Shown in pieces: positions 3,739 through 50,294 of a DNA stretch of 50,294 bases. Every line of letters starts with the position of its first letter. The stretch's first letter is position 1. A program made the position numbers and the translations under genes. Under the pieces are notes generated by a model. It was not told the DNA's origin and did no database searches. It saw nothing but the letters and a program-made list of their open reading frames with translations. The DNA is from a virus. The stretch is taken from the IMG/VR virus record IMGVR_UViG_3300017991_000020, positions 1 to 50,294 of that record. One strand, given 5' to 3'.

Positions 3739-3890
3739 TGTTATTTAAAACAGCAGCACTGAAGAAAACAAAAGACTACACCTTTTTTGAGTGGCTTCTT
3801 TTGTCTCCTGCACTGATCTGGTGCCTTGTTATGATTGTTGTCATGAGCTTGTTTGGTTTTTATATGACAAGAGACTGGAGCAAACTATGA
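3738..3890 (+). CDS. Small single-pass membrane protein (50 aa)
   Basis: This 50-residue gene begins on the ATG that overlaps the ParB-like stop (TGATG at 3736-3740) and ends on a TGA that overlaps the next start (ATGA at 3887-3890). Both junctions are classic coupled overlaps, which strongly supports translation. The first 18 residues are basic and polar, about residues 19-42 (LLLSPALIWCLVMIVVMSL) form one transmembrane helix, and a short TRDWSKL tail follows. Function is unknown; small phage membrane proteins of this kind include holin accessories and host-takeover peptides. Confidence 0.75.
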   Translation: MLFKTAALKKTKDYTFFEWLLLSPALIWCLVMIVVMSLFGFYMTRDWSKL

Positions 3891-4225
3891 ACAGCATCTG
3901 GTCTTATAAGGGCAAAGTCACAAACGTTGTTGATGGTGACACGGTTGATGTTGATGTTGACCTTGGGTTTTACGTGTCCACACAACTTCGTTTTAGACTG
4001 GCAGGCATAGATGCTCATGAGATCAGAGGAGTTGAAGAGAGCGTCAAGGCTCTTGGCATGGAAGAGAAAAGATTTTTAGAAGAACTAATACTAGATAAAG
4101 ATGTTATCATTCAGAGTGACAAGACAGGGAAGTATGGAAGGTGGATCTGTGAGCTTTGGCTCAACAAAGAGAATGTGAATTTTCTTATGGACAGATACAT
4201 CAAAGACACGAACCGTTTACCGTGA
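3887..4225 (+). CDS. Thermonuclease-like (SNase-fold) endonuclease
   Basis: A 112-residue SNase-fold protein. It shows VVDGDTVDVDVDLG (D16, D18), R37 and RLAGIDAHE (D42, E45), and GKYGRW (R85), matching the calcium-binding aspartates and the Arg-Glu-Arg catalytic set of staphylococcal nuclease. The start is the ATG at 3887, which overlaps the preceding stop; an upstream extension would encode the membrane gene out of frame. There is no signal peptide, so it would act in the cytoplasm, possibly on host DNA or during recombination. Shorter than secreted SNases (about 149 residues), but the core motifs are complete. Confidence 0.85.
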   Translation: MNSIWSYKGKVTNVVDGDTVDVDVDLGFYVSTQLRFRLAGIDAHEIRGVEESVKALGMEEKRFLEELILDKDVIIQSDKTGKYGRWICELWLNKENVNFLMDRYIKDTNRLP

Positions 4226-39584: not shown

Positions 39585-40985
39585 TTAGAAAAGTTTTATT
39601 TCGTTATCGAAATCATCATCGTCGTCTTCAATAAGTTTGTTGAAGTAACTACTAAAGTCCACAATGTCAGATTCTTTTTTTGAAGTGTTCTCCTTCTCTT
39701 CTATCACTTTAACACTTAAACTTGAACTTGAATACTCTTCAGCAGCAGCGTTAGCTAACATGAGAGAGCTCACACAGTCATCATGCAATCCTTCAGGAGC
39801 ACCATAGCTCATGTTCCCAATAGCAGAGAACTTTACTTCATAAGCGTCAAGCTCACCAAGCATGGTCCCCCAGTTTGGAGTCCTAATATTGCCCTGTTCA
39901 TAGGTCATGATAAGTAGGTTAACCATCTCCGCTTTTGTTGCATTTGTAAAAGTGATCCCCTCGAATGATAGATAGGTCTCTGCCAGCATGTCATCGAGAG
40001 CCTCACCAACTCCAGTCTTGTCATGGTATACAACCTCGACTTGCTTGAACTTCCTGCAGAATCTTATCAGTTCTCCAACTTGTGTTGTGTACGGTTGCTG
40101 GTGGAACCTAAGGAACCCAACAATTTTTCTTGGTGTCTCTGTATAGTCAATGGCAACAAATACCGTGTAGTCTCTTTTCTTTGCCCAGTCCACACCAATG
40201 ACAACAGCCTTCTCCTCTGGGTTCTCATCAAACCAAAATTCTCTATGACCAGTGAACTCTAAGAGCTCACCATAGACTGTGTTCTTAACACCAACGAAGA
40301 CGCTTGCATCATCCAAAAACTCAGCAAGATAGAACTGCCTATAGAGGCGCTCAGGCATTCTCTCCTTAGCTTCCTTGATTCTCTCTTTTGAGATGTAGGG
40401 GTTTGCAGATGTTGGTGCGGTTATGAAAAGTTTCTTTGGAACCTTGCCTCTCTTAAGAGCCCACTCCATTTCTTCTTTTGCTTCCATGCACTTCTTATAG
40501 AAGAAGCCCTTGCCAAGAGGAGTGGAGATAACAACAAACCCACCGAGCGTTCTTGTGGTTGTTGTGAAGGCAGACTCGTAGACCTCACCCTTCATTTTTG
40601 CAAACTCATCCAGGACATACCCATCTATTGCAGCACCCTCAAGAGAGGTTGGCTTTTGCCCATGCCAGAATTCAAAGACCGTTCCTTTGGCTGTAGTAAT
40701 TCTAGGTCCAGCCAAGTTGACATCAACATAGGGCTTCTTAGGAAGGACTGACTGCATCTCTGTGAAGCCTAATTTTGCCTGCTCATAGATAGGACCTACC
40801 CATCTCCACTTAGATCCAGGTCTAAGCAATCCTGCAGTAGCAAGTGCAGTTGACGCTCCAAGAGTCTTGCCGAATTTAGTTCCACATGGCATCCACAATT
40901 CTTGACTCTCACCTTTGATAAAAAACTCCATAAGAGTATTCTGCTCAACACTGTGAGGCTTTGGCGGCTCAATTGTTACGTACAC
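39585..40985 (-). CDS. Terminase large subunit
   Basis: A 466-residue packaging motor. The ATPase has a Walker A-like GTKFGKT (about 35-41), Walker B with VLDEF (about 129-133), and a TTTRTLGGFVVISTP coupling motif. The RNase H-fold nuclease has D in GVDWAKKRDYT, D in VYHDKTGVGE and the HDD pair in LHDDCVSSL. The C terminus is acidic (EDDDDDFD). The start lies close to the small subunit stop. Confidence 0.9.
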   Translation of the reverse strand: MYVTIEPPKPHSVEQNTLMEFFIKGESQELWMPCGTKFGKTLGASTALATAGLLRPGSKWRWVGPIYEQAKLGFTEMQSVLPKKPYVDVNLAGPRITTAKGTVFEFWHGQKPTSLEGAAIDGYVLDEFAKMKGEVYESAFTTTTRTLGGFVVISTPLGKGFFYKKCMEAKEEMEWALKRGKVPKKLFITAPTSANPYISKERIKEAKERMPERLYRQFYLAEFLDDASVFVGVKNTVYGELLEFTGHREFWFDENPEEKAVVIGVDWAKKRDYTVFVAIDYTETPRKIVGFLRFHQQPYTTQVGELIRFCRKFKQVEVVYHDKTGVGEALDDMLAETYLSFEGITFTNATKAEMVNLLIMTYEQGNIRTPNWGTMLGELDAYEVKFSAIGNMSYGAPEGLHDDCVSSLMLANAAAEEYSSSSLSVKVIEEKENTSKKESDIVDFSSYFNKLIEDDDDDFDNEIKLF

Positions 40986-40987
40986 AG

Positions 40988-41545
40988 TTAACCTTCTATT
41001 AGCTTAGGTTTGTTTGGGTCTTCTGCTTCAACTTCAATGACTTCCTGTAGGACTGTTCCACTTGCTCCTACCTTGGCTCTAAATATGACTTCCTGCTTTT
41101 CATTGATGTCGAGTGTACCCTTATTAAGGATGGGTGCCATAACTGTTTTAATGAGGTCAACCTTGATCTTTAATAGATCTCTGTCCATGCCTTGAGCATC
41201 GAGAATCTTTATAGCCTCTCTCATCGCCTTTTCTTGAGCCTTCTTTACAAGGTTCTTTGTAGACATGAAGAGGTTGTCAAGATGCCTTTTGAATACAGGA
41301 CGGGTCATTCTTTTGTGGACTTGCTGTCTTGTCATTCCAACAGCTTCTGCTATTTGTGGGGTTCTTGCTGAGGGGAAGCGTGCGATGTGTTCGAGTATTC
41401 TTCTATCAACAGCATCTGCAATATACTTGGAATACTCTAGGTCTTTGTCTGCTATTTGTTCGTTGTTAACATGAGGAAGCTCTTTGATCATCTCGGCATG
41501 TTGCTCTCCTCGTGTCAGTTTTTTCTTTTTTATTTTGCGACTCAT
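40988..41545 (-). CDS. Terminase small subunit
   Basis: A 185-residue protein from the ATG at 41545, chosen because GAGAGAGGC lies just upstream; the TTG at 41572 is not needed. It has a strongly basic N terminus (KIKKKKLTRGEQ) and a clear HTH (ARTPQIAEAVGMTRQQVHKRM), as expected for the DNA-recognition domain of small terminases, then an oligomerisation helix region. It lies one gap upstream of the large subunit. It would recognise the pac or cos site, whose location I cannot tell. Confidence 0.8.
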   Translation of the reverse strand: MSRKIKKKKLTRGEQHAEMIKELPHVNNEQIADKDLEYSKYIADAVDRRILEHIARFPSARTPQIAEAVGMTRQQVHKRMTRPVFKRHLDNLFMSTKNLVKKAQEKAMREAIKILDAQGMDRDLLKIKVDLIKTVMAPILNKGTLDINEKQEVIFRAKVGASGTVLQEVIEVEAEDPNKPKLIEG

Positions 41546-41729
41546 CAAGCCTCTCTCTCTTCGAACCAACAATCTTAAGCGCCTTCTCTGTTGATTGTCT
41601 GATTTTTAGGCAGTTTTTACAAGTGGCTTCTGTCTTGCCTTCTGTGAAGAGTCTGCTTGATGACCCACAGATTGCAATCTCATTCCATGATCTGTGTGAC
41701 TTATAGTGTGTCTTTATTGCTTTGGTCAT
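41466..41729 (-). CDS. Small zinc-ribbon type protein overlapping terminase small subunit
   Basis: An 87-residue protein; the first ~55 residues contain C21 and C37-x-x-C40 with the pattern seen in small phage zinc-type proteins (HRSWNEIAICGSSS, EATCKNCLKIRQ). The last ~25 residues overlap the terminase start in another frame and look compositionally odd, so the true reading may end functionally before them. It starts with an ATGA-type link to the gene at 41726. Confidence 0.5.
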   Translation of the reverse strand: MTKAIKTHYKSHRSWNEIAICGSSSRLFTEGKTEATCKNCLKIRQSTEKALKIVGSKRERLDESQNKKEKTDTRRATCRDDQRASSC

Positions 41730-42022
41730 GTGTCAACCTTGTGAAGCGTATGAACGTTACTGTCTTTTTCTTCTTCATTGCCATACATTGACTTCATGAT
41801 GTCTTCATAAGAAATCAAACGAACAGCTTCGCCTTGGACATCATGAAGCTTGCTGTATAATAGCCTTAGCGCATAGCTAAACCCCCTATTAAAACCACCA
41901 GCATGAATAACTTTAAAGGTCTCGAAACACGCTGCTTTGTCTCTACCAATACAAATAGTCATTGTATCATATGCTGTACTAAACACCCTGTTTAATGCTT
42001 CTTCTTCCGATTGCCTATTCAT
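41726..42022 (-). CDS. Hypothetical protein
   Basis: A 98-residue protein from the ATG at 42022, chosen because GGAGACAGGGA lies just upstream and an upstream in-frame ATG at 42040 lies within the previous gene. It is mostly helical, with a cysteine at TICIGR and a second at AACFE. No family recognised. It overlaps the previous gene by 8 bases and the next by 4. Confidence 0.6.
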   Translation of the reverse strand: MNRQSEEEALNRVFSTAYDTMTICIGRDKAACFETFKVIHAGGFNRGFSYALRLLYSKLHDVQGEAVRLISYEDIMKSMYGNEEEKDSNVHTLHKVDT

Positions 42023-42260
42023 TCCCTGTCTCCACATCACTTAATAGTTTAATGTCTGGCTTTGGTTTACCTGGCTTCTTATCTGTGTCAAGCTCCATAA
42101 ACTTCTCTGCCTCTTCTCTAGTTACTTCCTTAGGGAACGCTGCATATCTTGTTCCATTTGCAGGCATACATTGAATGTTGATCCTGTCCTGAGGAGACAA
42201 GATAACCATGATGGGCTCATCGTTTGGGTTGTATATTTTGTTGCCTATCTTTACTAACAT
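42015..42260 (-). CDS. Small hypothetical protein
   Basis: An 81-residue protein with a beta-type N-terminal domain (MLVKIGNKIYNPNDEPIMVIL, PQDRINIQCMPANGTRY) and a charged C-terminal tail. The pattern is one I recall from small phage proteins next to anti-defence or terminase genes; no function is known. Confidence 0.6.
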   Translation of the reverse strand: MLVKIGNKIYNPNDEPIMVILSPQDRINIQCMPANGTRYAAFPKEVTREEAEKFMELDTDKKPGKPKPDIKLLSDVETGNE

Positions 42261-42268
42261 CTTAGCTC

Positions 42269-42637
42269 CTATTGTTTGCTTGTCCCTTCAACACCACGTT
42301 TTTCTCTGTCTTCTTTTCTTGCTCTTAGATGTATCAGTGCTTCCTCTAAACATACTATTGCTCTGACGTTCTCTGTACACGGGAACTTGGAATTAAGATT
42401 GGCAAGAATGATTGATGCAGTTTTAATAATAGTATCAACCTGACACCCATTTACTCCTGTTTCTTTTATTGGTCCGCTCTGAAGTTTAAAAGAGATTGAG
42501 TTAATCTTATCGCAAATATGAATAGGATACTTAGGACGCAATGCATCATACTCATCCCACGTCATGCCTTCTGGCTTGCCTCTAGTTATGCCAAAGCCAT
42601 CTATTTGCTTTAATTCTTTTAATGTCTCTAAAGCCAT
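42269..42637 (-). CDS. Acb2/Tad1-like candidate cyclic-nucleotide sponge
   Basis: A 122-residue protein. Residues 54-64 (SGPIKETGVNG) are followed by two helices with C87-T-E-N, LEEAL (97-101) and an Arg-rich end (RARKEDREKRGVEGTSK, 105-121). I recall the GPIKE-x-GVNG ... ENxxAI-x-xLEEAL-x-x-L-x-x-R-x-x-R-x-x-RGVEGT pattern from phage proteins annotated as Acb2/Tad1 hairpin-type. Those proteins bind and sequester cyclic oligonucleotides or gcADPR signals of CBASS and Thoeris immunity. Function here is inferred from pattern and should not be taken as shown. It lies 2 bases downstream of a DHH phosphoesterase gene, which may share a role. Confidence 0.6.
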   Translation of the reverse strand: MALETLKELKQIDGFGITRGKPEGMTWDEYDALRPKYPIHICDKINSISFKLQSGPIKETGVNGCQVDTIIKTASIILANLNSKFPCTENVRAIVCLEEALIHLRARKEDREKRGVEGTSKQ

Positions 42638-42639
42638 TG

Positions 42640-43515
42640 TTATCTCCTCTCGAATATAAGTTCTTCAGTCACACAGCCTGCTGCTCCTTTGTGCCCACCA
42701 CCATTAAACTGCTTTGCCAGTGAGCCAGCATCTCTGTCTTCTCTTGTTGAGTAAAACGACCATGACCATTGCTTGTGTTTGTTCATACTAAAGCACACCA
42801 TGAAGTCATGTCTCTTTGGATCCCACTTTGTTTTAAATACCTGGCTGTTTCTCAACCCACCATTCAAGCATAAGCATGTGTAGTCTTTTATCTTTGCTTC
42901 AAACGAGCTCTTCATTCCAAAGGCATTTTGGTTGTCTTGGTATTTAAGAATTGTTCTTCCAGTCACTATTGTTCTTTGAACAAAAGATTGATCATCAAGG
43001 ACGTCTATAAATTTATCAAAATCAAACTCATCAAGCCTCATACCAAACTGGAATGGCATGACCTCTTTGTCCCAGTCATAGTCTCCATGGCATTGTTTTT
43101 CTTTTGTATCTCTCCATGAATCATACTGACCCAGAAGTCTTATAGGCAATGGAATGCTGCGGAGAGATAGGGCTTCCCATGTTAGTTCGCAGCCAGCAAC
43201 ATAAGTATCACAATGTATATTGTCTGGTATTCTCTCTTTAAGGGTCCTATAAGCCTCAGACTCAAGAAAAGTCTTGTGGTGATCAAACACATAGAGCTTC
43301 TCATCAACATGGTCACACAGCTTTACCATGTCACTATATGGCTGCAGAGCAAGATCAACAAAGTACACAGTATCATCGTGCTTGATGTCTTCCCAAGGGA
43401 ACTGCTCGTTGTAATTAAATGGCATGAGCACAACGTCAGGAACAAACTTCTTGACTATTGCTGCAGATGCTTGCCCGTCTAAATCAACCTTGTGATAGAA
43501 ACAATATGTAGTCAC
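42640..43515 (-). CDS. DHH-family phosphoesterase (NrnA/B or GdpP-like)
   Basis: A 291-residue DHH/DHHA1 enzyme. Metal-site residues: H8, D11, D13 (HKVDLDG), D54 (YFVDLALQ), D78-H79-H80 (VFDHHKT) and D132 (QYDSWRD), then DHHA1 GGGHKGAAG (272-280). Such enzymes cut short RNAs (nanoRNase), pAp or cyclic dinucleotide products such as pApA. No PAS or membrane domain is present, so it is a free cytoplasmic enzyme. It lies directly upstream of the Tad1-like gene in the same operon. Roles in nucleotide salvage or in clearing defence signals are both possible. Confidence 0.85.
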   Translation of the reverse strand: MTTYCFYHKVDLDGQASAAIVKKFVPDVVLMPFNYNEQFPWEDIKHDDTVYFVDLALQPYSDMVKLCDHVDEKLYVFDHHKTFLESEAYRTLKERIPDNIHCDTYVAGCELTWEALSLRSIPLPIRLLGQYDSWRDTKEKQCHGDYDWDKEVMPFQFGMRLDEFDFDKFIDVLDDQSFVQRTIVTGRTILKYQDNQNAFGMKSSFEAKIKDYTCLCLNGGLRNSQVFKTKWDPKRHDFMVCFSMNKHKQWSWSFYSTREDRDAGSLAKQFNGGGHKGAAGCVTEELIFERR

Positions 43516-43890
43516 TTACTTCTCCTTCTCTTTACATGCAGCACAAACACCTAATGTAACTTCTTTATCTGCTGACATACACCTGCACTGAGCCAAGACC
43601 ACGTCGCAATGCTTGCACTTCAGTATAAAGTGCTTACCAACAACGTCCTTACATTTCTCATCAGAAAATATATCCTTCGGTGTTTCTTTAAATATCTCTT
43701 CCGGCTCATAAAACAAAGGCTCTACATTCTTAATCCTTACAAAGCTCGCATTAAGAACACTCTCAACATAAACAGTAAGAGAATCAATCTCATCCTCATC
43801 ATGCAGGGTTGGGAATGTCAGTGTTTCTCTGTGCCCACGCCTGTCAACTAAAACAGTCCACATCCTTGCTGCTGGTTCTTGCACTGTCAC
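43516..43890 (-). CDS. Two-part protein with C-terminal zinc ribbon
   Basis: A 124-residue protein starting with GTG at 43890 (GTGA overlap with the upstream stop); an ATG at 43863 is an alternative. The N-terminal ~75 residues are acidic and alpha-beta; the C-terminal part carries C80, C91-x-x-C94, C101-x-C103 and C116-x-x-C119, a likely zinc-binding pair of knuckles. It ends next to the DHH gene start. Function unknown. Confidence 0.65.
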   Translation of the reverse strand: MTVQEPAARMWTVLVDRRGHRETLTFPTLHDEDEIDSLTVYVESVLNASFVRIKNVEPLFYEPEEIFKETPKDIFSDEKCKDVVGKHFILKCKHCDVVLAQCRCMSADKEVTLGVCAACKEKEK

Positions 43891-45248: not shown

Positions 45249-45449
45249 ATGACTAGCACAATTATTCCTGACACAAAACGAAAAACTTTTCTATTGCGGA
45301 TAAAATTTAAGGACTATGCAAGGATAGTCGAAAAGGCGTATGAGTATGCAGATGGGAATGTTTCGGAGTGGTTTAGATATGCTGCTATGAATCACATTCC
45401 CTCAGAGGAAGATCTATATAGGAAGGTTGACAATGAATATATTTCTTAG
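45249..45449 (+). CDS. Small ribbon-helix-helix-type regulator
   Basis: A 66-residue protein from the ATG at 45249 (AAAGGA upstream; an in-frame start at 45189 is unlikely). It has a strand-like KRKTFLLRIKF followed by two helices (DYARIVEKAYEYADGNVSEWFRYAAMNHI), the size and layout of Arc/MetJ RHH repressors. As first gene of the rightward arm it may autoregulate the overlapping divergent promoters upstream. It overlaps QueE by 17 bases. Confidence 0.6.
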   Translation: MTSTIIPDTKRKTFLLRIKFKDYARIVEKAYEYADGNVSEWFRYAAMNHIPSEEDLYRKVDNEYIS

Positions 45450-46023
45450 AGATGCTTACTGGTCTGTCCAAGGCGAGGGTTATAACACGGGTCGTTGGGG
45501 TCTTTTCTTAAAGTTTCATGGTTGCAATTTGAAGTGTGAGTGGTGTGATACAGATCACAAGAGAGCAGAGTATAAGTATAATGCAGAGCAGTTGGTTGGT
45601 TTATTCAATGTTAACGATTCTAGGTATTCTTTTCTTACAGGTGGAGAGCCTAGTGTTAGTGTTCACGTTGGTGATGTTATTAATCTGCTTAGAATGAATG
45701 ACTTCATAGTGTGCCTTGAGAGCAATGGAGTAGAGAAGTGTCCTCAGGGTGTTGACTTCCTTACGGTGTCTCCTAAGAGAGATAACCGTTATAAGATACA
45801 TCCTTACAATTTAGTACATGCCAATGAGTTTAAGTATGTTGTTGATCAGAACTTTGAGTGGGAAGTATTGAGCAGGCATAAGGGCGCCAGTGGTCAGCTT
45901 CTTTATTTGAGTCCTGAGTATACTGATATGGAGAGCAACGTTATAGATATTTTATCGTTTATAGAGACGAGACCAGAGTGGCGATTGTCTTTACAAACAC
46001 AGAAGTGGATTGATGTGAGATGA
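45433..46023 (+). CDS. queE: 7-carboxy-7-deazaguanine synthase (radical SAM)
   Basis: A 196-residue QueE homologue starting at the ATG at 45433 after GGAAGG. Visible hallmarks: SVQGEG (11-16), the radical SAM cluster C31-x3-C35-x2-C38 (GCNLKCEWCDT), TGGEP (69-73), ESNG (96-99) and TVSPK (111-115). It converts CPH4 to 7-carboxy-7-deazaguanine in the preQ0 pathway. No QueC, QueD, FolE, Tgt or DpdA gene is recognised in the genome, so it would have to work with host enzymes. Length and motifs are normal for the family. Confidence 0.9.
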   Translation: MNIFLRDAYWSVQGEGYNTGRWGLFLKFHGCNLKCEWCDTDHKRAEYKYNAEQLVGLFNVNDSRYSFLTGGEPSVSVHVGDVINLLRMNDFIVCLESNGVEKCPQGVDFLTVSPKRDNRYKIHPYNLVHANEFKYVVDQNFEWEVLSRHKGASGQLLYLSPEYTDMESNVIDILSFIETRPEWRLSLQTQKWIDVR

Positions 46024-46259
46024 CTGACGAGGAACTTTTAAAACACAAAGAAGAAAATAATTTATGGGACCACATACATTCCTTCTTATCGGTATTTAAG
46101 AAAATGAAGGAAGGCAAGTGGAACTGGACCAAGAACGCCAAGTGTAAGTATGTTGTGCTTAGGGTTGATATGAGAGACGGTGGTTGCATTATAAGCGACA
46201 GGAACGGAAGGAGAATATCACCAAAGATGCTTGCTTACCAATGTGATGAGGACAAATGA
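46020..46259 (+). CDS. Hypothetical protein
   Basis: A 79-residue protein coupled to QueE by an ATGA overlap at 46020-46023. It has a helical first part and a beta-type end (KCKYVVLRVDMRDGGCIIS). No family recognised. Its tight coupling to QueE makes it a candidate partner, but nothing else supports that. The following gene starts one base after its stop. Confidence 0.6.
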   Translation: MTDEELLKHKEENNLWDHIHSFLSVFKKMKEGKWNWTKNAKCKYVVLRVDMRDGGCIISDRNGRRISPKMLAYQCDEDK

Positions 46260-46260
46260 G

Positions 46261-46932
46261 ATGACAAGAAAAGGCTTTTGCGAACTACCATTAATCAAGA
46301 TCAAAGAATGTGCTTGGAACTACAAGCTTGATGACAAAGAGCTTGAGTCAAAGCTGAAGGCAAACATTGAGAAGAACGGCCAGATAGAGAATCTTATAGT
46401 TCGTTCTATCAAAGATGGTTTGTATGAGTGTGTAAACGGGAACCATAGATTAAAGGTTCTTAGAGATCTTGGTGTTGATAAGGTGAGGGTGTTTAATCTT
46501 GGCACCATTTCTCAAGCAAAGGCAAAGAGAATTGCGGTTGAGACCAATGAGACAAAGTTCAGGTCAGATCCTTTGAAGCTTTGCGATGTTGTTAGAGAAG
46601 TTCATGATGAGTTTGGTATGGTTGATATTTCTGAGACACTTCCATATACAGGTGATGAGATTGAGACGCTTATATCCTTGGATGATCCCCCCAAAGAGGA
46701 AGAGAAGGATGAGCCTAAGTACACCAACCAGGAGACAAAGACAAAGTTTATTGTTGATGGTTCTTTGGGTGTTTTAATGAGGGGTCAAGTTGATAGGATC
46801 AAGCACTTCATATACCCAGACCGAGCTCCTGAGAATGTACCAGACTCTGCTGCTTTTGATTTCATGTGTGGTTATTTTTCTACTATGTCAGACAATGAAC
46901 TTAAAGCAGAGGTCTACTCGTCACTTGAATGA
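46261..46932 (+). CDS. ParB-like partition/nuclease domain protein
   Basis: A 223-residue protein from the ATG at 46261 (GAGG 11 bases upstream). The N-terminal domain shows the ParB fold: CELPLIKIKECAWNYK, GQIENLIVRSIKDGLYECVNGNHRLKVLRDLG (G-N-H-R at about residues 61-64) and the helix AKRIAVETNET. The C-terminal region is unrelated to classical ParB and has no clear HTH. A second ParB-like gene lies at 2869. It ends the rightward control operon before the terminator at 47024. Confidence 0.8.
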   Translation: MTRKGFCELPLIKIKECAWNYKLDDKELESKLKANIEKNGQIENLIVRSIKDGLYECVNGNHRLKVLRDLGVDKVRVFNLGTISQAKAKRIAVETNETKFRSDPLKLCDVVREVHDEFGMVDISETLPYTGDEIETLISLDDPPKEEEKDEPKYTNQETKTKFIVDGSLGVLMRGQVDRIKHFIYPDRAPENVPDSAAFDFMCGYFSTMSDNELKAEVYSSLE

Positions 46933-49407: not shown

Positions 49408-49685
49408 TACCAGAATTGATTGAGGTGCAGACAATGACTTTTGATGAGGTTTGCACAGCGTTGAGGTTAAGCAAGAGAACAGTGGTAAGGATCATGGACA
49501 AAGATGAGACCTTCCCTAAACCTAAAAAAATTTCAAGACAGACGGTGCGGTTTTTTAAAAAAGAGATAAAGGAGTGGATAGATGACAGACACGAACAATG
49601 CAAAGATTTACGCAGCAATTGCAGCGGTCATGAAGGAAGTGAACGCTATAACCAAGGACCAGAAAAACGAGATTCAGAGATATAA
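49398..49685 (+). CDS. AlpA-like HTH protein
   Basis: A 95-residue protein with a winged HTH (MTFDEVCTALRLSKRTVVRIMDKDETFPKP, then SRQTVRFFKKEIKEWI) of the AlpA/excisionase type. Start GTG at 49398 (GAGGGGG upstream) overlaps the exonuclease stop; ATG at 49434 is also possible. The last ~35 codons overlap the ERF start at 49582 by 104 bases and look non-conserved (CKDLRSNCSGHEG), so the functional domain may end near residue 62. It probably regulates the recombination operon. Confidence 0.65.
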   Translation: MELIPELIEVQTMTFDEVCTALRLSKRTVVRIMDKDETFPKPKKISRQTVRFFKKEIKEWIDDRHEQCKDLRSNCSGHEGSERYNQGPEKRDSEI

Positions 49686-50294
49686 CTACCGATCGATTGA
49701 TGATGTCTACAATGAACTACATGACATCATGGCAAAGCATGAGGTATTCACAACAGCAAAAGTTATTGAGAGCAAGTCCAATACGTTTGCAAACAACAAT
49801 GGCAAGAGGGCTGTTCACGTACAGAACAGATATGAGTTTACCTTCCATACCACTGACGGTTCTTCTTTATCGACAGAGGCAATTGGTGAGTCCATAGACA
49901 CGAGTGACAAGGCTTGCAATAAAGCTTCCTCAATGGCTCATAAGACAGCCCTTCTTCAGACGTTCCTCATCCCAACCAAAGAGGACAAGGACCCAGACAA
50001 GCACTCTCACGAGATCCCAATGGACCAGAGCCAACCACAGAATGCCAACCAGAGATTAAGGCAAGCTCAACAAAGAGCTCCACAGCAGAGTCCTGCTCCT
50101 CAGAGAGCACCTCGTCAGCAACCAAGACCACAACAACCCAGGCAGCAGGCTGTCCCAGATATGCCGCCACAAGCTCCATGGCCTGACGCTCCACCGCCAG
50201 ACATTGACCTAGATACTAATGTCATTCCTATGCCAAGTGACCATGACACAAAAAGCTTCACGCAAAATGGCCTGCCTTCAATGAAGTCTGTGTG
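49582..50294 (+). CDS. ERF-type single-strand annealing protein, N-terminal part (continues at window start)
   Basis: This gene runs off the window end and finishes at 277; together 288 residues. The N-terminal ~135 residues form the ERF annealing domain: KIYAAIAAVMKEVNAITKDQ, NYRSIDDVYNELHDIM, an AHKTALLQTFLIP end, followed by a long Gln/Pro/Arg-rich linker (about 150-200). The start ATG at 49582 (AAGGAG) gives the usual family N terminus; a later ATG at 49630 would cut it. ERF proteins anneal complementary single strands and pair with a RecE/exonuclease, here at 48532. The partial end is only an effect of where the circle was opened. Confidence 0.9.
   Translation, partial: MTDTNNAKIYAAIAAVMKEVNAITKDQKNEIQRYNYRSIDDVYNELHDIMAKHEVFTTAKVIESKSNTFANNNGKRAVHVQNRYEFTFHTTDGSSLSTEAIGESIDTSDKACNKASSMAHKTALLQTFLIPTKEDKDPDKHSHEIPMDQSQPQNANQRLRQAQQRAPQQSPAPQRAPRQQPRPQQPRQQAVPDMPPQAPWPDAPPPDIDLDTNVIPMPSDHDTKSFTQNGLPSMKSV
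50172..50294. repeat. Terminal direct repeat, right copy
   Basis: Identical to bases 1-123. The duplicated stretch encodes the same part of the ERF linker, in frame, confirming the contig closes on itself. Confidence 0.95.

Follow-up and report, generated by a model that had tools for sequence, protein, structure and literature searches.

The 122-residue open reading frame (ORF) described here encodes, as judged from sequence comparison and structure prediction, a divergent Tad1-family protein with a predicted function as a nucleotide sponge, and its gene lies directly downstream of one for a standalone DHH–DHHA1 phosphoesterase. In the reading that we favor, and regard as fairly likely, the locus combines a Tad1-family sponge with an independent, NrnB-like DHH housekeeping enzyme, the two being neighbors because the operon is compact.

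Gene layout of the sponge and DHH region

The window, meaning the whole stretch of DNA that was analyzed, is a linear IMG/VR virus record of 50,294 bases. The features that bear on the argument are as follows.

39585..40985, minus strand: large terminase (Pfam Terminase_6C, E = 6.5e-8)
40988..41572, minus strand: probable small terminase, an HTH protein whose gene immediately precedes that of the large terminase (Pfam HTH_AsnC-type and HTH_24; position)
41726..42040, minus strand: function-unannotated gene of 104 aa in the sponge–terminase interval (ORF list; Pfam and PHROG searches)
42015..42260, minus strand: function-unannotated gene of 81 aa, 8 nt downstream of the sponge gene (ORF list; Pfam and PHROG searches)
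42269..42637, minus strand: predicted Tad1-family sponge gene, 122 aa (PDB sequence match, PHROG 2428, AlphaFold2 model, Foldseek, conservation)
Within the 122-aa protein: predicted β-strands 15-19, 39-42 and 47-50; QxGPIKExGVNG loop 53-64; helical hairpin 67-84 and 88-114; C-terminal RGVEGT tail
42640..43515, minus strand: standalone DHH–DHHA1 phosphoesterase, probably NrnB-like, 291 aa, catalytic motifs intact (PHROG 4771, Pfam, profile, AlphaFold2, motifs)
43516..43890, minus strand: function-unannotated gene of 124 aa that abuts the DHH gene (ORF list; no Pfam or PHROG match)

Both ORFs are present where an initial annotation had placed them, and the 122-aa product carries the GPIKETGVNG and LEEAL...RGVEGT segments on which that annotation had drawn. 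The DHH gene lies upstream of the sponge gene on the same strand, with 2 nt between its stop and the sponge start, and each of the two has its own Shine-Dalgarno-like, purine-rich sequence (AGAGGAG and AGAAGGAG). The gap is unremarkable, because the flanking genes are packed just as tightly, head to tail, with spacings of -4, 0, +2, +8, -26 and -4 in a string that continues to the terminase and portal genes. Adjacency within such a string therefore means little. The sponge gene sits at the head of the packaging and structural part of this string.

A search of 50,697 phage records at the nucleotide level returned no near relative of the 9.3-kb stretch around the two genes, and the terminase and capsid of this phage have distant matches only. 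Elsewhere the window carries a QueE-like radical SAM gene at 45427-46023 (PHROG 2076, E = 7.8e-22) with a ParB-like gene nearby at 46231-46932, a phage-encoded staphylococcal-nuclease-like protein at 3791-4225, and an ERF recombinase gene at 49582-50294 that is interrupted by the contig end.

The 122-residue protein belongs with Tad1

Tad1 proteins are a family of sponges, including for gcADPR and cyclic oligonucleotides (PMC12043709, PMC12657218). When the PDB was searched with phmmer, CmTad1 (8kbb) matched residues 51-121 of the window protein with E = 8e-11, followed by phiKZ gp184 (8y6v, E = 1e-4) and CbTad1 (7uav, E = 0.04), and the founding member of the family, SBSphiJ7 Tad1, is 42.5% identical to it over 79 aa. 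A profile built from 73 relatives found the Tad1 PDB entries 8kbb (7e-42) and 7uav (8e-21) together with phiKZ gp184 8y6v (1e-19), and nothing else. The protein also matches PHROG 2428 (E = 1.9e-20), an unannotated family, listed as of unknown function, to which a likely function can now be assigned. The E-values for 8kbb and PHROG 2428 put the similarity well outside what chance would produce. PHROG 23843 and 22140, also listed with function unknown, match the protein as well and could be re-annotated along with PHROG 2428. Searches of NCBIfam and PADLOC yielded no useful match to the sponge or the DHH gene.

The AlphaFold2 model of the protein (pLDDT 90, pTM 0.81) runs from strands through the loop to a two-helix hairpin. 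Its best nine PDB matches in Foldseek are all Tad1, with probability 1.00 and rmsd of about 2-3 Å over 73-78 columns; the alignment to Tad1 spans only ~77 columns, with a TM of 0.55. In Tad1, antiparallel β-strands at the N terminus precede the hairpin (PMC12043709). AlphaFold2 predicts the three strands listed above ahead of the hairpin in the window protein, but in a comparison restricted to distant relatives residues 1-43 show no detectable sequence relation to the Tad1 N-terminal strands.

The initial annotation had suggested a sponge of Tad1 or Acb2 type whose model would match solved structures of these proteins. The Tad1 part holds up in sequence (8kbb, PHROG 2428) and in fold, and the Acb2 part was abandoned. 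That the protein is an Acb2-type sponge is extremely unlikely: although the hairpin is common to both families, and Pfam PF24729 (Acb2_Tad1_hairpin) joins them in one hairpin model, the window protein is 122 aa long with predicted N-terminal strands, PF24729 itself does not match it while matching SBSphiJ7 Tad1 above cutoff, and not one Acb2 chain appeared among the sequence and fold matches, in which all Tad1 entries were recovered. The relative of the protein is Tad1, not Acb2.

Conserved positions and a distinct clade

Family members were gathered with the DNA pattern GP[IV]KExG[VI]NG, which favors GPIKE-type members; at least 120 viral stretches matched it, and every one listed encodes a family member. 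Across 96 representatives among the matches listed, Q53, G55, G61, N63, G64, R111 and G118 are invariant and N90, R107, R114, V116 and E117 are nearly so. The loop columns formed part of the search pattern, and N90, R107, R111, R114, E117 and G118 lay outside it. The window sponge retains every invariant and near-invariant position, among them the arginines R107, R111 and R114.

The sponge falls in a clade of about 23 proteins from uncultivated phages (support 100/96) that stands apart from CbTad1, CmTad1 and SBSphiJ7 and contains no characterized member. Typical of this clade are CQVD after the loop, a leucine at the position of CbTad1 F82 (L81 in the window sponge), a helix–helix loop one residue shorter, and an N-terminal sequence of its own. 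We take F82, N92, R109 and R113 of CbTad1 to be ligand contacts, and N90, R107 and R111 are kept in the window sponge. Because F82 is replaced by leucine and the α1–α2 loop is one residue shorter, the ligand preference of this sponge, or of its clade, may differ. A Tad1 clade with changed pocket residues and no characterized member is thus a good place to seek new ligand specificities.

As a member of this family, the 122-aa protein would bind and sequester host alarm nucleotides, namely gcADPR (Thoeris) and/or cyclic di- and trinucleotides (CBASS). With these signals sequestered, the effectors would stay off and the phage could replicate. Late production of the sponge, or its packaging in the particle, is plausible, since its gene heads the packaging and structural string and its phiKZ homologue, gp184, is virion-borne. 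Indeed, phiKZ Tad1 is carried in the virion, injected, and a working sponge (PMC13282480). Tad1 homologues at L007:3866-4219 (Lactococcus phage 1706) and in Bacillus phage P59 (MT151604.1) are annotated as structural, which fits the virion-borne phiKZ protein.

It is quite unlikely that the window protein is a Tad1-like protein whose sponge function has been lost or changed and whose main role now lies in the virion or in packaging. The structural annotations of the Lactococcus phage 1706 and Bacillus phage P59 homologues, the occurrence of phiKZ gp184 in a solved structure, the position of the gene near the terminase, which is also the commonest neighbor in relatives, and the change at pocket position F82 all speak for such a role. 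However, the loop and N90, R107, R111 and VEGT are near-invariant in the family and kept here, as expected of a retained binding site, and phiKZ Tad1 is virion-borne and a working sponge at once (PMC13282480).

The DHH–DHHA1 enzyme is probably NrnB-like

The gene directly upstream does encode an intact DHH/DHHA1 phosphoesterase, as the initial annotation had stated. The 291-aa protein matches PHROG 4771 (DHH phosphoesterase) with E = 1.6e-36 and the Pfam DHH and DHHA1 models below cutoff, and its catalytic motifs, HxDxDG, VD, DHH and GGGH, are all intact. Relatives were collected with an alignment-based scan, which returned 51, where a single-protein scan returned 0. A profile of 34 DHH sequences has as its best match the H. 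pylori structure 6mtz, nearly over the full length (E = 5e-10), followed by weaker matches, mostly via DHHA1, to DhhP, NrnA, TmPDE and c-di-AMP phosphodiesterases. The AlphaFold2 model (pLDDT 93) has DHH/DHHA1 folds and again returns 6mtz as its first fold match, with comparable matches to c-di-AMP phosphodiesterases of the GdpP/CnpB/DhhP type. Thus, fold and sequence alone leave the substrate class open between NrnB and the c-di-AMP/pApA phosphodiesterases (GdpP, DhhP, CnpB-type).

Short RNA is the substrate of NrnB proteins (COG2404), and the tested homologues degrade it from the 3' end; three members that were tested on c-di-AMP, among them H. pylori NrnB, left it uncut (PMC12709177). H. 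pylori NrnB is presumably the protein in 6mtz. The window protein shares with NrnB its standalone DHH and DHHA1 domains and the DHH and GGGH motifs, and we consider it probably NrnB-like, an enzyme predicted to trim short RNA. It would act as an exonuclease on RNA of 2-5 nt or on linear dinucleotides in the nucleotide metabolism of the phage, separately from the sponge. DHH genes elsewhere often lie among those for RNase H, DNA ligase, SbcCD, RecA, helicases, ThyX, DHFR and polynucleotide kinase. Phage DHH enzymes were earlier proposed as a counter to CBASS-like or CRISPR signals (Iyer et al. 2021, PMC7824862).

The closest "phage" DHH match by E-value, MT835680, "Bacteriophage sp." (L010), resembles a bacterial chromosome fragment in which ORFs for thymidylate kinase, a DNA polymerase III subunit, TatD and an LpxB-like protein surround the DHH gene. 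This record was left out as evidence of phage context for DHH.

Sponge and DHH genes do not co-occur in the other records examined

The adjacency of the two genes is probably coincidental. Near relatives of the sponge adjoin terminase, lysis or function-unannotated genes and no DHH gene, and in the neighbor tally terminase genes are their commonest recognizable neighbors. Among the matches listed, the DHH gene was found in 0 of 128 other sponge loci (58 of them flanked on each side by 2 kb or more), and the sponge in 0 of 54 DHH loci. Searches of whole records were equally negative from both sides: DHH was absent from 24 sponge contigs and 14 sponge phages, and the sponge from about 42 other DHH records (41-42; contigs and one phage) and from nine DHH phages, one phage being common to these last two sets. 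A genome scan added three relatives of the sponge, all on short MAG contigs that likewise carry no DHH gene. The window itself, as positive control, was recovered in the DHH-record, DHH-phage and sponge-phage checks, that of the 24 sponge contigs being run without a control. Many or most of the contigs compared are fragments, so this lack of co-occurrence is not absolute.

Co-occurrence in other phages had been named beforehand as the test that could overturn a joint role, and none was found in the records examined from either query. The initial annotation had read the pair as a two-step anti-immunity module, in which the sponge binds a cyclic signal and DHH hydrolyzes that signal, or the linear dinucleotide left by another enzyme, so that depletion becomes irreversible. 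We now consider this unlikely. The genes are 2 nt apart in the same direction with active-site motifs intact, c-di-AMP or the cyclic oligonucleotides of CRISPR are substrates of some DHH–DHHA1 enzymes (PMC7824862), and phages offer precedents for a sponge plus a hydrolase, in T4 Acb1/Acb2 and in the adjoining Tad1 and Acb1 genes of 17 or more jumbo phages. However, the pairing is absent from all other records examined, the closest enzymes are NrnB-like and the tested ones do not cleave c-di-AMP, the neighboring genes are packed just as tightly, and the DHH relatives are found among replication and nucleotide genes. DHH was therefore rejected as a conserved partner of the sponge. In compact phage genomes, the fact that two genes lie side by side is in itself weak evidence of an anti-immunity module. 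It is likewise distinctly improbable that the window holds a new sponge–hydrolase pair, with a DHH enzyme to break down the signal captured by a Tad1 clade of changed ligand specificity, or the linear product of that signal; such a pair would be an independent counterpart of Tad1–Acb1 in the jumbo phages.

Tad1 adjoins Acb1 in jumbo phages

The broader idea of a sponge acting with a signal hydrolase fared better than DHH as the hydrolase. Phage T4 encodes a nuclease, Acb1, as well as a sponge, Acb2 (PMC11722364). A Tad1 homologue lies directly upstream of the Acb1 gene (PF23474) in SXP01, N1M2 and Yubaba, and coordinates matched between two tblastn searches bring the number of distinct jumbo phages in which the two genes adjoin to at least 17. 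Their hosts belong to five genera (Klebsiella, Serratia, Pseudomonas, Shewanella and Aeromonas), and in every case the order is Tad1-Acb1 with both genes on one strand. Annotation confirmed the pair in OBP, D3 and AerS_266. Loci with the pair are as follows.

L195:1806-2729: Tad1–Acb1
L196:1941-2738: Tad1–Acb1
L197:1827-2720: Tad1–Acb1
L203:1600-2397: Tad1–Acb1
L204:1510-2329: Tad1–Acb1
L205:1432-2291: Tad1–Acb1

The two genes are usually annotated "hypothetical", "ABC transporter ATPase" or "RNA ligase", and the depositors of AerS_266 already label them anti-Thoeris and anti-CBASS. No description of the pair was found in the literature searched, though such a paper may still exist. These genomic comparisons indicate that the conserved sponge-plus-hydrolase pair is Tad1–Acb1, not Tad1–DHH, and its adjacency is both conserved and testable.

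Tandem sponges also occur: a small gene for an Acb2-like hairpin adjoins a Tad1-like gene at L104:1482-2211 and L070:1415-2028. The Acb2-like gene of L104 matches PF24729 above cutoff, and that of L070 is 46% identical to it and has no Pfam match.

Comparison with known systems

The window sponge resembles Tad1 (CmTad1 8kbb, SBSphiJ7, CbTad1 7uav), whose family forms a hexamer of three dimers that binds gcADPR and cyclic oligonucleotides, in its QxGPIKExGVNG loop, helical hairpin, N/R/R and VEGT positions, and fold. It differs in its identity of about 32-42% and separate clade, and in having CQVD behind the loop, leucine in place of F82, histidine where Trp103 is usual, one residue fewer in the helix–helix loop, and a different set of 43 N-terminal residues. 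It has the same C-terminal domain as phiKZ gp184, which, in contrast, is a 230-aa protein of a jumbo phage with a long N-terminal extension. With Acb2 it shares the hairpin and the sponge principle, but Acb2 has about 94 aa, with one short and two long helices and no β-strands, and was recovered by neither sequence nor fold. The DHH protein resembles the NrnB nanoRNases (COG2404; B. subtilis, H. pylori) as a standalone DHH–DHHA1 enzyme with the DHH and GGGH motifs; it differs from them in being phage-encoded, in its identity of about 15%, and in its short C terminus, and is therefore not of the NrnB-A class. Finally, the jumbo-phage Tad1–Acb1 pair (AerS_266, OBP, N1M2) resembles the window locus in that a Tad1-family sponge adjoins a phosphodiesterase gene, but there the hydrolase is the 2H-fold Acb1, the order is Tad1 then Acb1, and the arrangement is conserved across many phages.
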